From assembly GCA_011525365.1 (NCBI GenBank), contig WTGQ01000002.1, positions 795,367-859,366 of the forward strand: DNA of 64,000 nt, read 5' to 3'. The notes beneath the pieces are model-generated. The model was not told where the DNA came from, did no database searches, and saw nothing but the letters and a program-made list of their open reading frames with translations. The DNA is from Acidobacteriota bacterium (GTDB taxonomy: Bacteria; Acidobacteriota; Thermoanaerobaculia; Multivoradales; Multivoraceae). Shown one piece after another: positions 38,234-46,584 of the stretch (its first letter is position 1; every line of letters begins with the position of its first letter). The translations under genes and the position numbers were made by a program.

Positions 38234-39334
38234 CTACTGGCCGCCGCTGGCCGCGCTGCGCGTCTCGTCCTCCAGCAGTCGGGCGCCTCTGAGGATGTTG
38301 CCCATCGCGTAGTTTCCCTCGTGGCAGGCGTACTCGTAGACCTTTGCCGGCGTGCCGGGCCACAGGTACTCGCCGCTCCAGGGCGCGCTCCACACGGTCG
38401 GGTCCTCGACCGTGAAGGCGTAGAGTAAATCGTCGGCGTTGACCCGGGTGAATCGCTCGGTCACCTTGAGGTTCCGCGAGGCGAGGAAGAGCGCCGGGGG
38501 GTCGATGAAGTTCGTCGTCTCGACCACGAGGGTGTCGCCTTCCCACCAGCCGATCGAGTCGCCGAGCCAGCGGCGCTCGTCCTCCGGGATGTGCTCGCCG
38601 CCGATGCGGACGATGCGCGCGTCGTGGACCATCTCGACCAGGATCATCAGGTGGTCCTCGGTCTGCACGATCCGCTTGGCGTTGTTGTAGAGCACGGGCA
38701 GCATCGGCGGTCCGCCGGTGGAGCCGAAGCCGATCAGGCAGCGTTCGGGCACGCCCAGAGTCTCCGGGCCGTCGTAAGGACCGGGGCCTTCGACCTCGAG
38801 CCACCAGGCGGTGCCGTCGTTGCCGCGCCGGCGACCGCGCCGCTCGGACATCCGCTGCATCGTCTCGGCGGTCAGTTGCGGCATCCGGCCGTTCGGCGGG
38901 TCGACGATGATCGAGGTCCGGAACTTGCCGTCGATCGAGAACACGTCACTGCCGCGATCGGTCCAGAAGTTGTTGTAGCCGCCGACGTTGCCGGCGCCGC
39001 TCGTCTCCCGGAACTCGTCGCCGAGGCCGATTGGCGGCGCGCCGCCGGGCGGGGGCGGTTCGTCGATCTGGCGGACGGCGGCCCGTGACGCTACCCGCTG
39101 CCGCTCCCGTTCGACGATCTCTTTCGCCTGCTCGGGCGTCAGGTACAGGTTGTCGCCGAACTCCTGCGGACGCTGCAACGGCGTCAGCGTGGCGATCTCG
39201 TAGTCGCCGGTGAAGTCGGGACGGCCGGAGGCCGTGCGCGGGATCGCGCCCTCGTCGGCGCCAGGCGCGGCGGGCGCCGCGAGGAAGACGAGGGCGGCGG
39301 CCGTGGCGGAAGCGAGGGAGACTCTGCTCTGCAT
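38234..39334 (-). CDS. secreted protein of unknown function, GHSIG/WEGDTLVVET family
   Basis: This 366-residue protein starts at ATG 39334, with AGGAG eight bases before it; upstream in-frame codons are not needed. It has a signal peptide (SLASATAAALVFLAAPAAPGAD) and then GRPDFTGDYEIATLTP. The family core is shared with the 36909 product: VQTEDHLMILVEMVHDARIVRIGG and GDSIGWWEGDTLVVETTNFIDPP. A NDGTAWWLEVEGPGPYDG segment and several Trp are notable. It is on the opposite strand, converging with the DUF6152 gene. Its leader carries one of the two related elements described at 39411-39542. Function unknown. Confidence 0.7.
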   Translation of the reverse strand: MQSRVSLASATAAALVFLAAPAAPGADEGAIPRTASGRPDFTGDYEIATLTPLQRPQEFGDNLYLTPEQAKEIVERERQRVASRAAVRQIDEPPPPGGAPPIGLGDEFRETSGAGNVGGYNNFWTDRGSDVFSIDGKFRTSIIVDPPNGRMPQLTAETMQRMSERRGRRRGNDGTAWWLEVEGPGPYDGPETLGVPERCLIGFGSTGGPPMLPVLYNNAKRIVQTEDHLMILVEMVHDARIVRIGGEHIPEDERRWLGDSIGWWEGDTLVVETTNFIDPPALFLASRNLKVTERFTRVNADDLLYAFTVEDPTVWSAPWSGEYLWPGTPAKVYEYACHEGNYAMGNILRGARLLEDETRSAASGGQ

Positions 39335-39410
39335 GGTGGCTCTCCTCATCGAGAGGGTTGGCGCCGGGCCTTGTTGGTCGCCATGCACAGTGGGCACGAA
39401 ACGCCCTGCC

Positions 39411-39542
39411 TATTCGCCGAGCGCCGGGAGCGACCCGGCGCCTGGTGTCGACTGTTGTATTCGGCAGGAGACCCGGCTCGCAGGCCCACGGCGCGACGAC
39501 AACCAACGACGGGAAGCTACCGCGCGGTCGAATGTCCGTCAA
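39411..39542 (-). ncRNA. putative promoter plus structured leader, copy 1 of a two-copy element
   Basis: On the minus strand TTGACG (39542-39537), a 17-base spacer and TAGCTT (39519-39514) read as a weak promoter. The leader that follows shares long blocks with the element at 43604-43738: GTTGGTTGTC, GTGGGCCTGCGAGCCGG, CCTGCC and a hairpin CGCCGGG-TCGCT-CCCGGCG. In the second copy the same TCGCT loop has a different but still paired stem (CAGGG/CCCTG). It lies 77-200 bases before ATG 39334. No known riboswitch motif was recognised. Confidence 0.5.
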
Positions 39543-39551
39543 ACGACGCGG

Positions 39552-40250
39552 TCAGGGGAGGGAGGCCGTCGCCGCCGCGACCATCAGGCCCGCCAGACCG
39601 ATCTCCAGGACCTTTCCTGCCGCCCAGTTGATGGCGGCGATGGCGAAACCCGCCGGCCTGGACAGCCGGAACACCGCGGCGGCGCCCAGGCCGAGGAGGA
39701 GAAAGGACCAGACGAAGACGAAGGAGCTGACCATCAGGTCGAGTATCGCGCCGGGCGCGATGTCGGCCACGAGCCCCATCATCTCGCGCCCGGAGTAGGG
39801 TGCCATGTCGAAGGCCCTCCGCTGAAGATCGACGATGCCGTCGACCTGGGTGGTTCTCAACAGCGAGCGGGCCACGAGCCCCGCAGCGCTGATCAGGCCG
39901 ATGTGGACCGCCAGCGACAGGCACTGTTCGATGCGCGCCCGACCTTTCAGGGCCGCGGCCAGGAGCCGGAGCACGACCGCCTCGAACAACAGCACGAGCG
40001 GGAGGGCCGCGAACAAGAAGGAGACGATTCCGTAGGGGATTTCGAGGGCGTCACCGATGCTGCCCATGGCATCGCCAAACCACCATGCAGTCAGCAGCCC
40101 GGTAAGGAGCATGAGGAAGATGCCCAATGCCAGGCCGGCGACCCACGGGTGGTGCTCGCGGATGACCACGAAGCTCTTCCCCGGAGCGATGAAGATCCAG
40201 ATCAGGCTCTTGAACCGGAAGTGGCCACTCACCTCCGGTTGCTCGCCCAT
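39552..40250 (-). CDS. Yip1-family membrane protein (copy A)
   Basis: This 232-residue protein has four or five transmembrane segments: PWVAGLALGIFLMLLTGLLTAW, GIVSFLFAALPLVLLFEAVVL, a helix after SLAVHIGLISAAGLV, LMVSSFVFVWSFLLLGLGAAAVF and VLEIGLAGLMVAAATA. The opening KSLIWIFIAPGKSFVVIREHHPW is the standard bacterial Yip1 start ('...P-x-x-xF-x-x-I...PW'). ATG 40250 is used. It lies downstream of a second Yip1 gene and the ABC pair on the minus strand. Yip1 proteins have no firm bacterial function; membrane remodelling or secretion support is a guess by analogy with eukaryotic Yip1. Confidence 0.78.
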   Translation of the reverse strand: MGEQPEVSGHFRFKSLIWIFIAPGKSFVVIREHHPWVAGLALGIFLMLLTGLLTAWWFGDAMGSIGDALEIPYGIVSFLFAALPLVLLFEAVVLRLLAAALKGRARIEQCLSLAVHIGLISAAGLVARSLLRTTQVDGIVDLQRRAFDMAPYSGREMMGLVADIAPGAILDLMVSSFVFVWSFLLLGLGAAAVFRLSRPAGFAIAAINWAAGKVLEIGLAGLMVAAATASLP

Positions 40251-40294
40251 TGGGGGACTGTATCGATTCGGGATCGACCAGCCCGAAGGCCGCG

Positions 40295-41074
40295 TCAGGT
40301 CGGCATGAGGCGGGCCGCCAGGCCGGTTGTCGCGGCCGTGAAGGCCGTCGCCGCCGCCCAGTAGATCGCGGCCAGCAGCCAGGCCTTGCGCTGCGGGACC
40401 TCGAACACCGTCGCGGCGCCCAGGGCGAGCAACGCGAGAGACCAGATCGTGAACGGGTTGATGCTCGCGTAGACGACGTTGAGCGTCGCGCTGTCGCCGG
40501 CCAGCAGCAGGTCGAGTCCCATCGGCGCCTGGAGGTCCAGTTGCGATCGGATCGCGTCGGTGCCGCGGACGTGGAGGAGAAGGAAGTTGGCCCAACCCTT
40601 GAGGTGGGTGATCACGCCCAGATGGACCATCAGGGAGAGGGACTGGGCGAATCGGAGCCGTCCCTGGAGCGCGATCGCCAGCAGCCACACGAAGACGGTC
40701 TGAACCGCAAGTCCGAGGGCCAGGGTCAGGGGTCCGGTGGCGATCGCCACCCCGCGTGCTGCCGCGGCTGTCTGCTCGAACTGCGCCATCATGGCCTCGA
40801 CCTGCTCCGGGTTTCCCGGCAGCCGTTCGGTCAGTTGGTTCCGCATCACCTGAAGGCCCAGAGGCGCCGAGGCCATCGCCAGGGCGGCGCTTCCGGCTAC
40901 CAGTAGAAGCAGCGGCGCGAGCCACGGGTTGCGGCTCCGGATGATCTCGAAGCTCTGCCGCGGCGCCCCGAAGATTCCGATCAGTGCCTCGAGCCAGGCG
41001 TTCCGGCCCTGTACGTGGTCAGCGGTCGTCTCGATCTTGCGTCCGTCGTGGATGCTGCCTGGGTGCTCGGTCAT
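40295..41074 (-). CDS. Yip1-family membrane protein (copy B)
   Basis: This 259-residue protein begins with a soluble stretch and then WLEALIGIFGAPRQSFEIIRSRNPW, the Yip1 lead motif. About five hydrophobic segments follow (APLLLLVAGSAALAMASAP; GPLTLALGLAVQTVFVWLLAIA; SLSLMVHLGVI; TIWSLALLALGAATVF; AAIYWAAATAFTAATTG). The likeness to copy A, including the SLSLMVHLG/SLAVHIGL strand before a short loop, shows that the two arose by duplication, although they are well diverged. The ATG overlaps the stop of the ABC ATPase gene (41071-41074, ATGA), so it is translationally coupled to the transporter. Confidence 0.8.
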   Translation of the reverse strand: MTEHPGSIHDGRKIETTADHVQGRNAWLEALIGIFGAPRQSFEIIRSRNPWLAPLLLLVAGSAALAMASAPLGLQVMRNQLTERLPGNPEQVEAMMAQFEQTAAAARGVAIATGPLTLALGLAVQTVFVWLLAIALQGRLRFAQSLSLMVHLGVITHLKGWANFLLLHVRGTDAIRSQLDLQAPMGLDLLLAGDSATLNVVYASINPFTIWSLALLALGAATVFEVPQRKAWLLAAIYWAAATAFTAATTGLAARLMPT

Positions 41075-41856
41075 GTCGCGCTCCTGTTGCCGATCCAGGA
41101 GAGGCGGGAGAACCTCTCGCGCCTGGAAATGCTGAGAATGAGGTTTTCGAGCCGCCCGGCGCCGTCTTCTCCCTCGGCCGCGGGCAGTTCACGGAACTCC
41201 TCCCGGGAGCACGACAGCAGGACCTTGCCGTCCCTGATGACGGCGATGTGAGTGGACACCCGCTCGACGTAGTCGAGCATGTGGGAAGTGAGGAAGACGG
41301 CTGCTCCCTGCTCGGCCATCTGCTGCAGGATCGACATGACGGTCCGGGCGCTCAAGGCGTCCATTCCCTCGAACGGCTCGTCGAGGAACAGGACCCGCGG
41401 CGCGTGAAGCGTCGCTGCCGCGAGGCGGATCTTCTTCCTCATCCCGTGCGAGTAGGTCGTGATCGGTCGCCTGGCGGCGTCCTCGAGGTCGAAGACCGAG
41501 AGCGCCTCGTCGGTTCGCTGCCCGGCGTCCTCGCGGCTCAGGCCGTAGATGCGGGCATACGACAGGAGCAGTTCCTCGCCGGTGAGGCTCTCGAACATCA
41601 CGCTGTGGTCGGGGACGATGCCGAGTTGTTGCTTGAGCTCCGTGTCGTTGATGTTGATCGGCCTGCCGAGCAGGCGCACCGTGCCGCTCGTGGGATTGAG
41701 CACCCCGGTCAACATCGACCAGGTCGTCGTCTTTCCGGCCCCGTTGGGACCGACGAAGCCCAGGATCTGTCCCTCCCGGACGTTCAGGTCGACGCCGTCG
41801 ACGACGACGTTGCCTCCGTACGACCGGGTCAGGTTCTCTGCCTTGATTACTTCCAT
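41071..41856 (-). CDS. ABC transporter ATP-binding protein
   Basis: This 261-residue ABC ATPase has Walker A GPNGAGKTT near residues 36-44, the Q-loop region GIVPDHSVMFESLTGEE, the ABC signature YSHGMRKKIRLA (variant of LSGGQ), Walker B VLFLDEPFEGMD with the catalytic Glu, and the H-loop FLTSHMLDYVER. The variant signature and the 'GNVVVDGVDLNVREGQILG' start match ABC-2-type exporters such as the CcmA/antibiotic-export group. It is followed by a short extra C-terminal segment of about 30 residues. It pairs with the large permease encoded upstream (41909-43495). The substrate may be the peptides of the adjacent cluster, a producer self-protection target, or something else. Confidence 0.88.
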   Translation of the reverse strand: MEVIKAENLTRSYGGNVVVDGVDLNVREGQILGFVGPNGAGKTTTWSMLTGVLNPTSGTVRLLGRPININDTELKQQLGIVPDHSVMFESLTGEELLLSYARIYGLSREDAGQRTDEALSVFDLEDAARRPITTYSHGMRKKIRLAAATLHAPRVLFLDEPFEGMDALSARTVMSILQQMAEQGAAVFLTSHMLDYVERVSTHIAVIRDGKVLLSCSREEFRELPAAEGEDGAGRLENLILSISRRERFSRLSWIGNRSAT

Positions 41857-41908
41857 CCGTGAGTTCTTCCTTGTGGTTGCAGGGGCGGGAGAGGTTAGGG
41901 GCAGGTGT

Positions 41909-43495
41909 CTAGGGGGACGGGTCCTTGAGCAGAAGTTCGCGGCCGCGGGCTGCCAGCATCCGTCTCTGCCTTCGTCGAGAGGCGTATGCGGCCGCGGCGG
42001 CGAGGAGCACTACCGAGACCGCGATGATCGCGGTCGTCAGCATCGTCACGCGCTGGCGTTCCAGGAGCGCCCAGAGCAGAAAGGAGAGGGCGCCTGGCAG
42101 GCCGACGAGGTGTGCGGCCACCAGGGCGGCGCCGAGCCTGGCGCCGTCGGGGTCGTGCAGGAACCCCTCGTTGCGTTGGGGCCAGCGAAGCTGAATCAGG
42201 CCGTACGTTGCGGCGGCCATGAGGAAGCCCGCGAGCATCAGACAGACGGCGACGAAGAAGAACTGCCAGCCGAACCACTCAAGCGGCGTCAGACCCAGAA
42301 TGAACGCGATGGCGAAGACGATGACCACGTTCATCGCGCGGCCGGGCGCGCTGAAGACTCCCCGGACCGGGAACGGCAGCGGGAGCGACTCCCGCCATAC
42401 ATGGCAGGTCGGGGGCTGCTTTCCTATGCGAAAGTCGTTCAGAAAGATGGCGAAGAGGGCCGCCGGCCCCACCGCGAAGCCGCCCACGGTGGGTACGAGG
42501 ACGAGGGAGGTACCCAAGACCAACGCGAGAAAGAGCCGTGCCGGCTTCAGACGCAGGAGGCACTCGATCTCAACCAGCGTGAGGACGCCCGTTGGAGTGA
42601 GACGCTTCGCCTTGCGGAGCAGCCTGGCAAGAGGCAGGCTTCCGGAAGCCGTGCGCCGGTCGCCACCGGGACGTTCCAGGTAGCCGCGAAGCAGGAGCCG
42701 ACTCTCGAGCACGGCCAATACGCCGAGAACGGCCATCAGGCCGCTGAGTCTCGCCAGATTCGACGCCGAAGGCCCCGGTTGGTGGACGATGGCGGCGACG
42801 AGTCCGGGCGGCGTGTAGCCGAGTCCGCCGAGAACGTCCGACTCCTCGATCGCCTGAGTGAGCCCTTCGGAAGCGATCTCCCCGCCGAAGGCCAGCACCC
42901 CGAGCATGATCGCGCCCTGGCACGCGGCAACGATCGCCACGATGGCCAGGGCGCCGAGCTTGCCTTCGACCGGCCGGTTGACGAGAAGCGACAGGATCGC
43001 CGCGGTGCGGCCGAAGATCCAGACCAGGCTCAGGATGGCGAGCAGGGTGATCGGCGCTCCGCCGACGCCTCCCGATCTTGCGACGGCGAGGTAAACGCCG
43101 GCGGGACCGAGAACCGGGAGCCAGTAGCCGATCGTGCTGAGAGCGAAACGGAGCCCGTAAAGGTCCCGGAAGCCGACCGGCAGCCGCAGCAGGTCCTCCA
43201 GGTCGAGCAGCCAGGTGACGGGCACTCGAAGCAGCACTTGGCCGAGCAACGCGATCGCCGTCACGGAGCAGGCGATCAGGCTCAGGAGGTTGCCTCGCAG
43301 GGCGTCGCTCTCGATGGCGAAGATCGCCGGAAGCAGCCCCAGAGTCAGGACAGTCGCAAACGCGAGGAACAGGACGGCCATGAAGATCGCCACCGCCAGC
43401 GGCTGTTTGCTCCGTCGCACCGCGTCCGGCAAGGCCAGCCGCGCGAGCGTCAGCAGCAGATCGGCCCGGCTACCCGGGTGCGTGAACATCGCCAT
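41909..43495 (-). CDS. ABC-2-type transporter permease
   Basis: This 528-residue polytopic protein has at least ten hydrophobic segments, for example QPLAVAIFMAVLFLAFATVLTLG, LLSLIACSVTAIALLGQVLL, LAIVAIVAACQGAIMLGVLAF, LFLALVLGTSLVLVPTVGGFA and VVIVFAIAFILGLTPLEWFGW. This is roughly twice the usual ABC-2 permease size, as in fused dual-permease exporters. Between the second and third groups lies a soluble part rich in Arg (RTASGSLPLARLLRKAKRL). ATG 43495 is chosen (AGGAC a few bases upstream); an upstream extension to 43546 adds a non-hydrophobic tail and is not favoured. It is followed by the ATPase gene 53 bases later. An element like that at 39411 precedes it. Confidence 0.8.
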   Translation of the reverse strand: MAMFTHPGSRADLLLTLARLALPDAVRRSKQPLAVAIFMAVLFLAFATVLTLGLLPAIFAIESDALRGNLLSLIACSVTAIALLGQVLLRVPVTWLLDLEDLLRLPVGFRDLYGLRFALSTIGYWLPVLGPAGVYLAVARSGGVGGAPITLLAILSLVWIFGRTAAILSLLVNRPVEGKLGALAIVAIVAACQGAIMLGVLAFGGEIASEGLTQAIEESDVLGGLGYTPPGLVAAIVHQPGPSASNLARLSGLMAVLGVLAVLESRLLLRGYLERPGGDRRTASGSLPLARLLRKAKRLTPTGVLTLVEIECLLRLKPARLFLALVLGTSLVLVPTVGGFAVGPAALFAIFLNDFRIGKQPPTCHVWRESLPLPFPVRGVFSAPGRAMNVVIVFAIAFILGLTPLEWFGWQFFFVAVCLMLAGFLMAAATYGLIQLRWPQRNEGFLHDPDGARLGAALVAAHLVGLPGALSFLLWALLERQRVTMLTTAIIAVSVVLLAAAAAYASRRRQRRMLAARGRELLLKDPSP

Positions 43496-43603
43496 CGAGT
43501 CCTGGTGTGTCGCTCTAGCCGGCTCTGAGGAAAGGTGGGCCGGCACCTGGACCGGTGGCGGGCCGAATCGGCCGCTCTGCGCAGGGGAAACGAGACCCCC
43601 CGC

Positions 43604-43738
43604 CGACTTGCCCGACGCAGGGAGCGACCCTGGGCCCAGGGGCGACGGCTAGGTCTGGCAGGGGGTCCGGCTCGCAGGCCCACTGCGCCTCTGACGACCA
43701 ACAGACGGACGCTAGCGCGCCGGGATGGCGTCCGTCAA
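43604..43738 (-). ncRNA. putative promoter plus structured leader, copy 2 of a two-copy element
   Basis: On the minus strand TTGACG (43738-43733), an 18-base spacer and TAGCGT read as a weak promoter. The leader then shares GTTGGTCGTC, GTGGGCCTGCGAGCCGG and CCTGCC with copy 1, and has CAGGG-TCGCT-CCCTG where copy 1 has CGCCGGG-TCGCT-CCCGGCG. The same loop with changed but paired stem bases suggests an RNA structure. It sits ~110-240 bases before the ABC permease start and 130 bases after the last peptide gene. Apart from this element I see nothing else in the 376-base gap 43496-43871. Confidence 0.5.
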
Positions 43739-43871
43739 ACATCTCTGCGGGGTGGAGAGCCGATGGCAACGAAGAGGAAGCGGGCGGTCGAGCTGACCGG
43801 GGCCGCTCGCGGGGGATCTCCGTTGCCATCGAACTCTCTCTACGCCGATCTACCGAGAGTGAGGGCGGGAC

Positions 43872-44159
43872 CTACTTGCAGAAGACCAGCGCAACAGGTG
43901 CGTACGCTCCGGCGATGGCGAGCCCGGCACCGCCGGTGACGGCGGCGGCTGTGAGCGCGGCGAAGCTGAAGCCGAGGACGGCGCCTACGCAACTCCAGTT
44001 CGTTCCGCCGGTTGCCGTCGCGAGCAACGCTTCCCCGGTCTGCTGGGCCTCGACCGGGATGCTGTCCGTGGGGACGGCGGGTCCACTGGCGCCCGTGGCC
44101 GGGGCCAGCGCGAACACAAACGTGAGAAGGAGGGTTGCAGCTACTGCTTTCCTGGACAT
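43872..44159 (-). CDS. bacteriocin-like secreted peptide 1 (Gly/Ala-rich, two Cys)
   Basis: This 95-residue precursor has a Sec-type signal (AVAATLLLTFVFALAPATGA, residues 5-24), then a short propeptide (SGPAVPTDSIPVEAQQ) and a double-glycine site ending LLATATGG at residues 51-52. The remaining 43 residues are hydrophobic and Gly/Ala-rich, as in two-peptide or pore-forming bacteriocins, with exactly two cysteines, C57 and C94 (the second next to the last residue), so one disulfide is possible. ATG 44159 is preceded by AAAGGAAA. It is the last of four small genes read from 45.1 to 43.9 kb and is not similar in its mature part to peptide 3 beyond composition. Family unknown; mature activity is inferred only. 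Confidence 0.6.
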   Translation of the reverse strand: MSRKAVAATLLLTFVFALAPATGASGPAVPTDSIPVEAQQTGEALLATATGGTNWSCVGAVLGFSFAALTAAAVTGGAGLAIAGAYAPVALVFCK

Positions 44160-44228
44160 GTCGTTTCCTTTCAGTGATTCAGAGTGTCTTCGGTGTAGGG
44201 GTCTGATTGGTTTCTGGTAGGGCCGGAC

Positions 44229-44588
44229 TCAGAAGAACATGGCGCAGACCATGCCAGCGCCTGCCAGCGCCAAGCCGGGGCCGGCACCGACGCCGCTCAG
44301 GGCGAGAGCGAAGCCGGCGCCAGTGGCGGCGCCGCACAGAAAGTCGGAAGTGGGGCCTGCCCCTGCTGTTCGAGCCAGAACCCGGTCGGACAGGGACTGC
44401 GGCCCGAGGCCGGGGGCAGGCTGGAGGGCGGACACGTCTGGGGCCGGGGTTGCGACCGGCCCGAGATCCCAGGTGGCCCTCAGCGTGGCCGCGCCTGGGT
44501 CCTGCGCCTCGCCGGCAGCCGGTGTAGCCATCGCGGCGCCGGCAAGGAACAGGAAGAGGACGGAAAGAAGGGAAATGCGGAGTTTCAT
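44229..44588 (-). CDS. bacteriocin-like secreted peptide 2 (Gly/Ala-rich, two Cys)
   Basis: This is a 119-residue precursor. Its signal peptide MKLRISLLSVLFLFLAGAAM is almost the same as that of peptide 4, and so is the following PAAGEA. A long Pro/Ala-rich propeptide follows, then a helical segment SLSDRVLARTAGAG (a glycine-type cleavage site, GAG at 76-78, or A-G). A 41-residue Gly/Ala-rich hydrophobic tail has two cysteines, C85 and C115. The tail AATGAGFALALSGVGAG and LALAGAGMVC looks like a membrane-active peptide. ATG 44588 is used; the open frame continues upstream only as noise. The leader shared with peptide 4 and the unrelated mature part point to duplication followed by change of the product. 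Confidence 0.6.
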   Translation of the reverse strand: MKLRISLLSVLFLFLAGAAMATPAAGEAQDPGAATLRATWDLGPVATPAPDVSALQPAPGLGPQSLSDRVLARTAGAGPTSDFLCGAATGAGFALALSGVGAGPGLALAGAGMVCAMFF

Positions 44589-44649
44589 CGAGAGTTGGTT
44601 CCTTCGAGGTTTGGGTTTTGTTTGAGGAGGACGGGTGGTTCGGCCTGCC

Positions 44650-44823
44650 TCAGAGTGGGATGTAGCAGGAAAGGGCGACCAGGGCGCCCAGGCCGGGAGC
44701 GACGGTGTCGACCAGTGCGGCTGCCGCCCAGCAGGCCGCCGAGACGACCCAGCCGGATCCGCCGGTGACGGTCGCGAGGCCTGCATCGGGCAGGTTCGCG
44801 ATCAGGGTTGAAGTGGCGTGCAT
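44650..44823 (-). CDS. bacteriocin-like peptide 3 with double-glycine leader (57 aa)
   Basis: This 57-residue peptide lacks a Sec signal and instead has a classical double-glycine-type leader of 22 residues: MHATSTLIANLPDAGLATVT followed by GG at 21-22. The 35-residue product SGWVVSAACWAAAALV ... LSCYIPL is hydrophobic, with Trp, Gly and two cysteines, C31 and C53. GAAAGAAG lies about 6 bases before ATG 44823. The leader's LIANLPDAGLATVTGG pattern is what C39 peptidases recognise in class II bacteriocins and related RiPP precursors. It is the shortest gene here. The mature peptide would have one disulfide and two potential amphipathic helices. How it leaves the cell without a Sec signal is unclear. 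Confidence 0.6.
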   Translation of the reverse strand: MHATSTLIANLPDAGLATVTGGSGWVVSAACWAAAALVDTVAPGLGALVALSCYIPL

Positions 44824-44857
44824 CTCGCTTCTTTCAGCGTTACCGGTGTCAGCGACG

Positions 44858-45124
44858 CTAGATGGGGAAGGGGTTGGGGATGCACTGGTCGGTGGGACCG
44901 GGCCACGGGCTTGGGAACGGCCAGGGAACCGGGAAGGGGCGGGGCGAGGGAGGAAAGGGAAAGTCGTCGCAGGGCACCGGGTAGTACTGAGCCGTCTGGC
45001 TTGGCGCTGAGGGCGGTAGCGTGACGTCGTCCGTGCCCGGCGCCTCGCCGGCGGTCGGAACAGCCAGCACGGCGCCGGCGAGGAAGAGGAAGAGGACGGA
45101 AAGGAAGGCAATGCGGAGTTTCAT
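44858..45124 (-). CDS. secreted Pro-rich two-Cys peptide 4
   Basis: This 88-residue precursor carries a signal peptide (MKLRIAFLSVLFLFLAGAVL) and a short post-signal segment (VPTAGEA) nearly identical to peptide 2. The mature part is quite different: after an acidic TDDVTLPPSA linker comes YYPVPCDDFPFPPSPRPFPV and a run rich in Pro, Phe and Trp, then PTDQCIPNPFPI at the end. It has exactly two cysteines, C52 and C81, 29 apart. Its Pro/Phe-rich character is unlike the other three and recalls proline-rich antimicrobial peptides, although that is analogy only. ATG 45124 is preceded by GAAGGAGA. It lies 15 bases downstream of the C39 peptidase gene. Confidence 0.6.
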   Translation of the reverse strand: MKLRIAFLSVLFLFLAGAVLAVPTAGEAPGTDDVTLPPSAPSQTAQYYPVPCDDFPFPPSPRPFPVPWPFPSPWPGPTDQCIPNPFPI

Positions 45125-45139
45125 TGAGGGCTATCTCCT

Positions 45140-45742
45140 TCAAGGGTTGTAGGTTGCGGGTGAGACGGACGGCGTTCGTACCGTCCGAGAAGGCAGTGGC
45201 GGGCCGCTGGTGAAGGACAGAACGACGCCGTCCCAGGAACGTTCGAAGGTCCTGGAACTCATGCGCAGCCGACCGAGGGATGGGTCGTCGATGACGAGTT
45301 CGTCGCCGGCGCTGCGGATGACGACGAAGTGGTCGCCGTGCACGTGCGCGATCGCGGGCAGCGCAATGTCGCGGAGCCGCTGGACGGGAAGCCGGAGCCC
45401 CTGGCTCGTCACGCCCCGCTCCTCAGCGGCCTTCTTGAGAGCCAGCAGGCTGGTGCCGTCGGGACCGGTTCCGGTGGCGATCTCGAGTTCGGCGAGTGTC
45501 GTGTCCCGGATGCCCCAGTGGTCGAGGACCATCTTCAGGGCCGCCGGACCGCAGTCGGCGCGCCTCTGCTGGCGAACGATCTCGCCCGGGGCCGGCGCCG
45601 ATGGGTCGAGTGTGGCGGCCCAGGCGAGCCGGTCCATGGTCGGCCCCAGTGCCCGGGCCGCGACCGTCACGAGGCCGGCCGCAAGCAGCAGACCGGCGGC
45701 GGCCGCATGCGGTGGGCGAATCCGGAACCGTTCAGAGCGCAT
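45140..45742 (-). CDS. stand-alone C39-family cysteine peptidase, membrane-anchored or exported
   Basis: This 200-residue protein has an N-terminal hydrophobic segment (AAAAGLLLAAGLVTVAARAL, residues 13-32) that is a signal anchor or uncleaved signal. The peptidase_C39 fold follows: Q58 and C64 in QQRRADCGPAALKMVLDHWG, a middle region DGTSLLALKKAAEERGV, H138 in HVHGDHFVVI and the Asp of VIDDPSLG near 153. C39 enzymes cut after double-glycine leaders and are normally the N-terminal domain of an ABC exporter; this one has no transporter domain. The start overlaps the thioredoxin-like gene end by 11 bases, and peptide gene 4 begins 15 bases after its stop. It is the best candidate for maturing the four peptides outside the cytoplasm. 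Confidence 0.82.
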   Translation of the reverse strand: MRSERFRIRPPHAAAAGLLLAAGLVTVAARALGPTMDRLAWAATLDPSAPAPGEIVRQQRRADCGPAALKMVLDHWGIRDTTLAELEIATGTGPDGTSLLALKKAAEERGVTSQGLRLPVQRLRDIALPAIAHVHGDHFVVIRSAGDELVIDDPSLGRLRMSSRTFERSWDGVVLSFTSGPPLPSRTVRTPSVSPATYNP

Positions 45743-46238
45743 CGGTTCCGGACTCCAGAAAGGAGCGCCAGGCCGTGTCTGGACGTTCTCCGGTTGTGAC
45801 CGCGAGGACCCGGGACTGCTCGTCGACCAGGAACACCAGCGGTACGTGGATGACGCCGAAGCGCCTGGAGACGGCGCCGTTGGGATCGGCGATGGCCGCG
45901 TGGACGCCGTCGCCGTCGAGTTCGGGCGAATCAGAGTCGGCGACGACCGCGATCAGGTCGAAGGCCGGAACCTCGGTCCGAGCCAGACGGCGCAGGGCGG
46001 TGATGGTGCGGTCGCAGTTCCCGCAGCCTGCCCTGGCGAAGGTCACGATCCGTAGCCGGCCGGGAGAGGCCGGCAGGGCTTCACGGTCCGCGAGGCCCGG
46101 CAGCGCGGGGAACAGTGCGCCGACTTCGGGACGCTGAGCCTGGCGCGCGCGGATTCCGGATTCGAACCAGATCAGACCTCCGAGGGGGGCGAGGACGGCC
46201 ACGGCGACGGTGGCGATGGCAAGTTGGCGACGGTTCAT
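45732..46238 (-). CDS. thioredoxin-like membrane-anchored protein with CGNC active site
   Basis: This 168-residue protein has an N-terminal hydrophobic anchor (LAIATVAVAVLAPLGGLIWF, residues 6-25) and a thioredoxin fold: strand RIVTFARAGCGNCDRTI (CxxC = C72/C75), DLIAVVADSDSPEL, then FGVIHVPLVFLVDEQS with the cis-Pro at about 133 and a final strand VLAVTTGERP. This is the TlpA/peroxiredoxin-like layout facing the periplasm. The CGNC centre is unusual but keeps the two Cys needed for thiol-disulfide exchange. Being translationally coupled to the C39 peptidase and next to four two-Cys peptides, it may form or check their disulfides. ATG 46238 is used; upstream codons of the open frame look non-coding. 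Confidence 0.8.
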   Translation of the reverse strand: MNRRQLAIATVAVAVLAPLGGLIWFESGIRARQAQRPEVGALFPALPGLADREALPASPGRLRIVTFARAGCGNCDRTITALRRLARTEVPAFDLIAVVADSDSPELDGDGVHAAIADPNGAVSRRFGVIHVPLVFLVDEQSRVLAVTTGERPDTAWRSFLESGTDAL

Positions 46239-46477
46239 CGCCGCTCTCCGGGCAAACCGGTCGCCCGGCCACGGACCGCCGGTCTTGTCCGGCTGTACAG
46301 CATGGAGACCAGGGGCGCGGACCGCGCGCCGAGCATGCGGAACGCACGTGCCAGGCCTGCTTCGAGGGTGCTGGCGGGAGGATGGGAGAGTCGGGGATTC
46401 CATCCGCGCAGCCGATGACGGGCGCGCCGACCGGTTGGCGGTTGGCGGAGGTTCAAAGGAAGGTTCGGGGACGTCAT
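46235..46477 (-). CDS. possible small protein upstream of the thioredoxin-like gene
   Basis: This 80-codon frame starts at ATG 46477 (GGAG seven bases before) and its TGA overlaps the next ATG as ATGA, which suggests translational coupling. The product, with PASTLEAGLARAFRMLGA and an Arg-rich end, matches no family that I recognise, and composition alone does not prove coding: another frame is open over the same bases. It could be the first gene of the peptide operon or a leader ORF. Confidence 0.3.
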   Translation of the reverse strand: MTSPNLPLNLRQPPTGRRARHRLRGWNPRLSHPPASTLEAGLARAFRMLGARSAPLVSMLYSRTRPAVRGRATGLPGERR

Positions 46478-46584
46478 CGTCCAGCTCCAGTGGTTCCGTT
46501 CCTGACGGCCAGACGGCCGTTGGGCGTCGGGTCGTGGTGATCAACGGCCGGGTTCAGCGGCCGCGTGTATCGACTAAGACGCAA

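Follow-up and report, generated by a model that had tools for sequence, protein, structure and literature searches.

We analysed a 64,000-nucleotide stretch of contig WTGQ01000002.1 from an Acidobacteriota bacterium with a 4.2 Mb genome (the window, meaning this whole stretch), in which a candidate bacteriocin-like locus occupies positions 43872-46238. A first-pass annotation had proposed six adjacent minus-strand genes here, and all six were borne out at these coordinates, each with a plausible ribosome-binding site:

43872-44159, minus strand: peptide 1 precursor, 95 aa; Sec-type signal; pro-segment ending LLATATGG; core TNWSC...VFCK with two Cys; pair member "b"
44229-44588, minus strand: peptide 2 precursor, 119 aa; Sec-type signal; pro-segment ending LSDRVLARTAGA; core GPTSDFLC...VCAMFF with two Cys; pair member "a"
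44650-44823, minus strand: peptide 3 precursor, 57 aa; canonical double-glycine (GG) leader LPDAGLATVTGG, without Sec signal; hydrophobic two-Cys core, variable between loci
44858-45124, minus strand: peptide 4, 88 aa; Sec-type signal; proline-rich C-terminal part with two Cys; without a GG site
45140-45742, minus strand: stand-alone C39 double-glycine protease, 200 aa; N-terminal membrane segment; predicted N-in, C-out by the positive-inside rule
45732-46238, minus strand: membrane-anchored CGNC thioredoxin/redoxin-like protein, 168 aa; start overlapping the end of an upstream small open reading frame (ORF)

The whole genome was scanned with the PF03412 model, which matched the window C39 protein at 109 bits (cut-off 22) and nothing else, so no peptidase-containing ATP-binding cassette (ABC) exporter is detectable by that model. 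The 200-aa protein itself carries no ABC domain and thus falls outside the peptidase-containing ABC transporters (PCAT/AMS exporters), in which C39 is fused to transmembrane and nucleotide-binding domains. Its AlphaFold model (pLDDT 71; catalytic domain mostly 76-92) best matched LahT150 with bound leader (PDB 6mpz; E 1.5e-8; TM 0.77 by target length), followed by PCAT1 and ComA, and a profile search of PDB sequences returned the same set (LahT, E 1.4e-18). Q58, C64, H138 and D153 are invariant across distant relatives, corresponding to the catalytic Cys-His-Asp residues and the oxyanion Gln. On this evidence we class it as a double-glycine protease of LahT type that lacks ABC domains. Residues 13-29 form a predicted membrane segment after a positive N terminus, likewise in nearly all relatives, and because this arrangement is predicted to be N-in/C-out, the catalytic domain should face the periplasm. 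These results confirm the earlier description of an ABC-less C39 protein with an N-terminal hydrophobic segment, and its proposed export is supported to the extent that the predicted topology recurs in nearly all relatives.

We then considered 81 precursors from 26 loci, scoring a Sec-type start as a hydrophobic 12-mer within residues 3-20 together with a non-negative start. A signal-like N terminus was present in every precursor other than the 57-aa type (70/70), and none of the 57-aa-type precursors (0/11) reached Sec-type hydrophobicity. In the window, three of the four precursors (peptides 1, 2 and 4) carry Sec signals, as originally read; the exception, peptide 3, is the one whose GG leader is most canonical.

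LahT recognises hydrophobic residues at -4, -7 and -12 of the leader (PMC10885120). Non-redundant, non-proline-rich precursors were anchored on a G-[GATS] dipeptide before the first core Cys, which in 39/40 precursors lay at most 11 residues ahead of that Cys. Leu, Ile, Val, Met or Phe occupied -12 in 82%, -7 in 72% and -4 in 49% of the anchored precursors, giving 79/117 at these three offsets vs 43/273 at others (permutation 0/20,000; p<5e-5), in a non-redundant set that still holds homologous leaders. The enrichment was also seen in a stringent set below 50% identity (n = 26; 46/78 hydrophobic at -4/-7/-12 vs 35/182 elsewhere), and was equally significant in the Sec-type-only subset (n = 25). 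A strict regular-expression test had shown only modest enrichment (13/40 vs 4.7 expected) and was replaced by the anchored test. The precursors thus follow the LahT substrate rule, with hydrophobic -4, -7 and -12 and G at -2. Predicted cut sites fall 36-66 residues from the precursor start, which would leave a pro-segment after signal removal.

The cores contain either two Cys (32 cores) or four (7 cores), never an odd number, and the pro-segments contain none; the cores are very hydrophobic (GRAVY, grand average of hydropathy, 0.9 to 1.75), and many of them are neutral or acidic. Peptides 1-3 each consist of a GG-type leader followed by a small core, as in class II bacteriocin precursors, and peptide 4 does not. 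For peptide 4 the first-pass annotation needs correcting: its two Cys were as described, but it is proline-rich and offers no GG site. At locus L017, one precursor is chimeric, its GG-type pro-segment being joined to a proline-rich end.

Scanning species-level genomes revealed 20 related loci, and a profile search detected the C39 gene in 14/14 sampled genomes of the genus to which the window belongs (Acidobacteriota, Thermoanaerobaculia), several of which carry it twice; the gene order proposed initially is therefore real and not a chance arrangement. By the same kind of search, the C39 gene was not found in G144, which belongs to another genus of the same family. The hosts of the 20 loci are nearly all metagenome-assembled genomes labelled Acidobacteriota, Holophagales or Thermoanaerobaculia, one of them being Candidatus Multivorans thiocomprendens. 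Typically a thioredoxin-like gene comes first, then C39, the small precursors, the ABC permease, the ATPase and the Yip1/YknW-like protein, with peptide 4 adjoining C39 in the genus loci examined. Complete distant loci (stand-alone C39, Sec-type peptides, permease, ATPase, Yip1) were found in other acidobacterial families or classes (L059, L060, L065), together with one without a called ATPase (L064) and one broken off by the contig end (L061); within the genus, paralogue loci of the same make-up were also present (L020, L021/L053, L054, L057). In the genus, as in L053, L057, L060 and L065, C39 is preceded by the thioredoxin-like gene, which was not seen in L059, L061 or L064. Tabulating the neighbours of ABC-less C39 homologues, as had been proposed at the outset, yielded mostly two-Cys ORFs and thioredoxin-like genes, with two loci lacking visible peptide genes (L062, L063). 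In phages and plasmids we observed weak C39 matches only, the annotated ones being on ABC exporters. One reduced C39 locus with a single peptide gene (L056:6224-8397) lies beside integrase-like and ABC-2-like fragments, and is possibly a mobile or decaying copy.

Substitution patterns within the genus were consistent with translation. The ratio of nonsynonymous to synonymous substitution (Ka/Ks) was 0.14 for C39, 0.30 for the thioredoxin-like gene and 0.40-0.48 for peptides 1, 2 and 4; the latter values, together with a third-position excess, support translation of these three peptides. Their Ks was about twofold higher (0.55-0.59) than that of C39 and the thioredoxin-like gene (0.28). In peptide 3, the nonsynonymous-to-synonymous ratio pN/pS was 0.46 in the leader vs 1.08 in the core, with the switch falling at GG; this boundary of constraint is that expected of a leader peptide, and supports coding.

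The last two gene slots hold matched pairs across the 18 loci compared: a with b (including the related j, k and h types), c with d, and e with f. Under independent assortment such matching would have a probability of about 9e-6, a figure calculated with shared ancestry left in. C39 remains at least 90% identical within the window's clade despite the pair swaps, and pair c-d is found in both clades. Adjacent paired precursor genes, a trait of class IIb bacteriocins, were thus present in the 18 compared loci, again with kinship left in. Core a sits behind clearly different N-terminal modules and the MRYRIA module precedes two different cores, a sign of within-gene exchange. L013:9208-11648 has a 94% identical C39 but carries peptides e-f and a permease of only 31% identity, a pattern that joint replacement of the peptides and the permease would produce.

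The conserved unit extends beyond the six genes first described: all six are present, but the downstream permease, ATPase and Yip1 genes (40295-43495) had been overlooked. The flanking features are:

46235-46477, minus strand: conserved small ORF, 80 aa (about 73-87 aa across loci), overlapping the thioredoxin-like gene start in most genus loci
41909-43495, minus strand: ABC-2-like permease, about 528 aa, matching no Pfam family; downstream of the peptide genes in the genus
41071-41856, minus strand: ABC ATPase, partner of the permease
40295-41074, minus strand: Yip1-domain membrane protein, YknW-like
39552-40250, minus strand: second Yip1-domain protein

The small ORF showed a Ka/Ks of 0.49 (12 loci) and is probably an extra operon member. 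The 40295-41074 protein matched the Yip1 domain, and the YknW model at 75.2 bits, below its equivalog cut-off of 110; no membrane fusion protein (MFP) subunit YknX was present among the genes called at 38234-46544. The permease gave a poor AlphaFold model (pLDDT 57.8) and no PDB match, and permeases occupy the same position in other acidobacterial families. ABC transporters and Yip1 proteins recur in leaderless and circular bacteriocin clusters (PMC11580447, PMC10707071, PMC8659200), and YknWXYZ, which includes the Yip1 protein YknW, shields Bacillus from the 42-aa toxin SDP, which is disulfide-bonded (PMC4887032); by analogy, the ABC-Yip1 block would serve in immunity or export. Tandem or broken second permease copies lie beside the first in four genomes (G108:C47, G160:C25, G214:C117, G386:C125), which suggests duplication and decay. 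The tandem permease as cognate of the c-d cassette was rejected, since L004 combines a-b with tandem copies and G334 combines c-d with a single copy at the locus. With regard to disulfide formation, the thioredoxin-like protein matched Redoxin at 28.6 bits (cut-off 26.6) and DsbA homologues were found in the genome; VKOR is absent and was rejected as the disulfide catalyst.

Between peptide 1 and the permease we observed a conserved element of ~165 nt (43540-43702, minus strand) predicted to form one long hairpin, and a 71% identical paralogue past the second Yip1 gene (39363-39507, minus strand). Both are preceded by a promoter-like TTGACG-N17-TAGC; the element has two copies in the genome and is conserved across the genus. 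Folding relative to shuffles was stronger for the paralogue (z -3.1) than for the 43540-43702 copy (z -1.6), with slight covariation. No Rfam match was obtained, and 43540-43702 was rejected both as a coding ORF and as 6S RNA, the 6S of this genome lying elsewhere.

Taken together, we propose the following course of maturation. Sec would export precursors 1 and 2, as well as the proline-rich peptide 4, and their signals would be removed; the pro-segment left over would be recognised by the membrane-anchored, periplasm-facing C39, which would cut after G-[G/A/T/S], in the register that LahT uses intracellularly, and free a very hydrophobic core of 33-59 aa. The CxxC thioredoxin-like protein and general DsbA proteins may help form one or two disulfides, the matched pair from the last two slots probably acts jointly on the membranes of close competitors, and the ABC permease, ATPase and Yip1 proteins would serve as immunity or exporter. 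The gene order, the predicted exported topology, the GG register, the even Cys number and the cassette swapping can be seen in the sequences, and a bacteriocin-like role is the likeliest that we infer from the ABC-Yip1 precedents and the cassette swapping. We favour the whole model, a bacteriocin-like pre-pro-peptide system with extracytoplasmic maturation, by somewhat more than an even chance, and hold the logic of export followed by C39 cleavage, taken alone, with greater confidence. The first-pass idea of Sec export, C39 cleavage outside the cytoplasm and disulfide-bonded cores finds good support in the predicted topology, the LahT register in Sec-type precursors and the even Cys number; it does not extend to peptide 3, which has no Sec signal, or to peptide 4, which has no GG site.

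Several observations weigh against the proposed model. Our confidence in the whole is held at this level because a canonical GG leader without a Sec signal, as in peptide 3, is unexplained by a purely periplasmic protease, peptide 4 provides no GG site, no outer-membrane exit component was seen in or near the cluster, and GxxxG, expected in class IIb cores, was not above composition (p 0.11 vs shuffles). In addition, no known bacteriocin family appeared among the peptide matches, typical class II bacteriocins are cationic, which most of these cores, being neutral or acidic, are not, and homologous leaders remain in the set behind the leader statistics. L062 comprises a thioredoxin-like gene, C39 and Yip1 with no peptide ORF found, and L063 is C39 alone.

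The alternative that survives best, although we consider it doubtful, is that two systems share one operon, with C39 processing only peptides 1-2 in the periplasm, and peptides 3 and 4 following another route (e.g., ABC export or direct membrane insertion). Two observations would suit this division: peptide 3 has a GG leader but no Sec signal whereas peptide 4 has a Sec signal but no GG site, and peptide 4 stays beside C39 in the genus loci examined; however, the leader register of peptide 3 is the same as that of other precursors, and the L017 chimera links both types. This division is compatible with extracytoplasmic maturation and narrows its reach. A somewhat less likely possibility is that the peptides are Sec-exported and C39-matured but non-toxic, acting in signalling or as membrane or surface structural peptides analogous to the FapD-dependent amyloid. 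Amyloid secretion requires FapD, a periplasmic C39 (PMC5557850), the FapD model weakly matches the window C39 (45 bits, cut-off 330), and mostly weakly charged, very hydrophobic cores would suit such a role; whereas the cluster showed neither a FapF-like channel nor amyloid repeats, FapD is a much poorer match than LahT, antagonistic peptides typically show such matched-pair swapping and a core as free of constraint as that of peptide 3, and ABC-Yip1 neighbours are typical of bacteriocin clusters. Least likely is an ordinary class II cluster with cytoplasmic-side C39 cleavage, ABC export of the cores and N-terminal hydrophobic stretches that are longer leaders instead of Sec signals: peptide 3 with its canonical leader and no Sec signal, the ABC permease and ATPase downstream of the peptide genes, and known bacteriocin clusters in which the ABC parts are separate and Yip1 is present would fit it, but in each of the 70 longer precursors a hydrophobic stretch comes at the signal position, after an N terminus that is not negative, the cut site lies 36-66 residues in, C39 has its own predicted N-in/C-out membrane segment, and ABC export after GG cleavage would leave the signal pointless.

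If the extracytoplasmic model is true, the order of bacteriocin maturation would be reversed, with export and folding first and leader removal last, outside the cytoplasm; the producer would be protected, disulfides could form before activation, and C39 would be uncoupled from the ABC exporter. The locus would also give an uncultivated acidobacterial lineage, associated with sponges and corals, a class of peptides that are probably antagonistic, at a time when experimentally studied peptides from it are only beginning to emerge (PMC13083261). An exported C39 together with Sec-GG two-Cys ORFs and Yip1 provides a search rule for further examples, and heterologous genes in E. coli would allow a simple laboratory test. 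The more general claim, that Sec-exported pre-pro-bacteriocins whose C39 leader is read in the periplasm by a LahT-like protease, with swapped two-peptide cores and an ABC-Yip1 partner, exist in several acidobacterial families, we regard as evenly balanced.

Finally, we compared the locus with the closest known systems. A Sec-exported precursor matured at a double-glycine by a stand-alone C39 was not found in the open-access literature searched, which is not proof of absence. The initial statement that no described system has this combination thus stands for a GG-leader bacteriocin version within that literature, but not for an extracytoplasmic C39 as such, for which FapD of Pseudomonas is a precedent, needed for amyloid secretion with its target left unclear (PMC5557850). 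FapD (NF058616), likewise a C39 without ABC domain, is Sec-exported and periplasmic, a location that the positive-inside rule also predicts for the window C39, and acts on a Sec-exported partner (PMC5557850); in contrast, Fap proteins carry no canonical C39 leaders, the partners are the FapF channel and amyloid subunits, and the window C39 scored 45.3 bits, not reaching the equivalog cut-off of 330. FilB (NF050078), a putative pilus-system C39 peptidase, is also stand-alone, but the window C39 scored 25.6 bits (cut-off 475), and nothing similar to the pilus system of its name is present at the locus. Bawcin, aureocin-like and circular groups 1-3 share small peptides with an ABC ATPase, permease and Yip1 (PMC10707071, PMC11580447, PMC8659200); these leaderless and circular clusters differ in having neither C39 nor Sec-signal GG precursors. 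The SDP (sdpABC)/YknWXYZ system resembles the locus in its 42-aa toxin with a single disulfide and in protection by ABC and the Yip1-family YknW (PMC4887032), whereas the MFP and MacB-like permease of YknWXYZ are absent at the window locus. The difference extends to proteolysis: we know of no C39 protease in SDP maturation. In LahT and other PCATs of class II bacteriocin and lanthipeptide clusters, the peptidase domain is part of an ABC exporter, cleavage is cytoplasmic, and the precursors have no Sec signal; the fold, the catalytic residues and the leader rule (-4, -7, -12 and G-[G/A]) are nevertheless shared, as is the use of one protease for several precursors with diverse cores.

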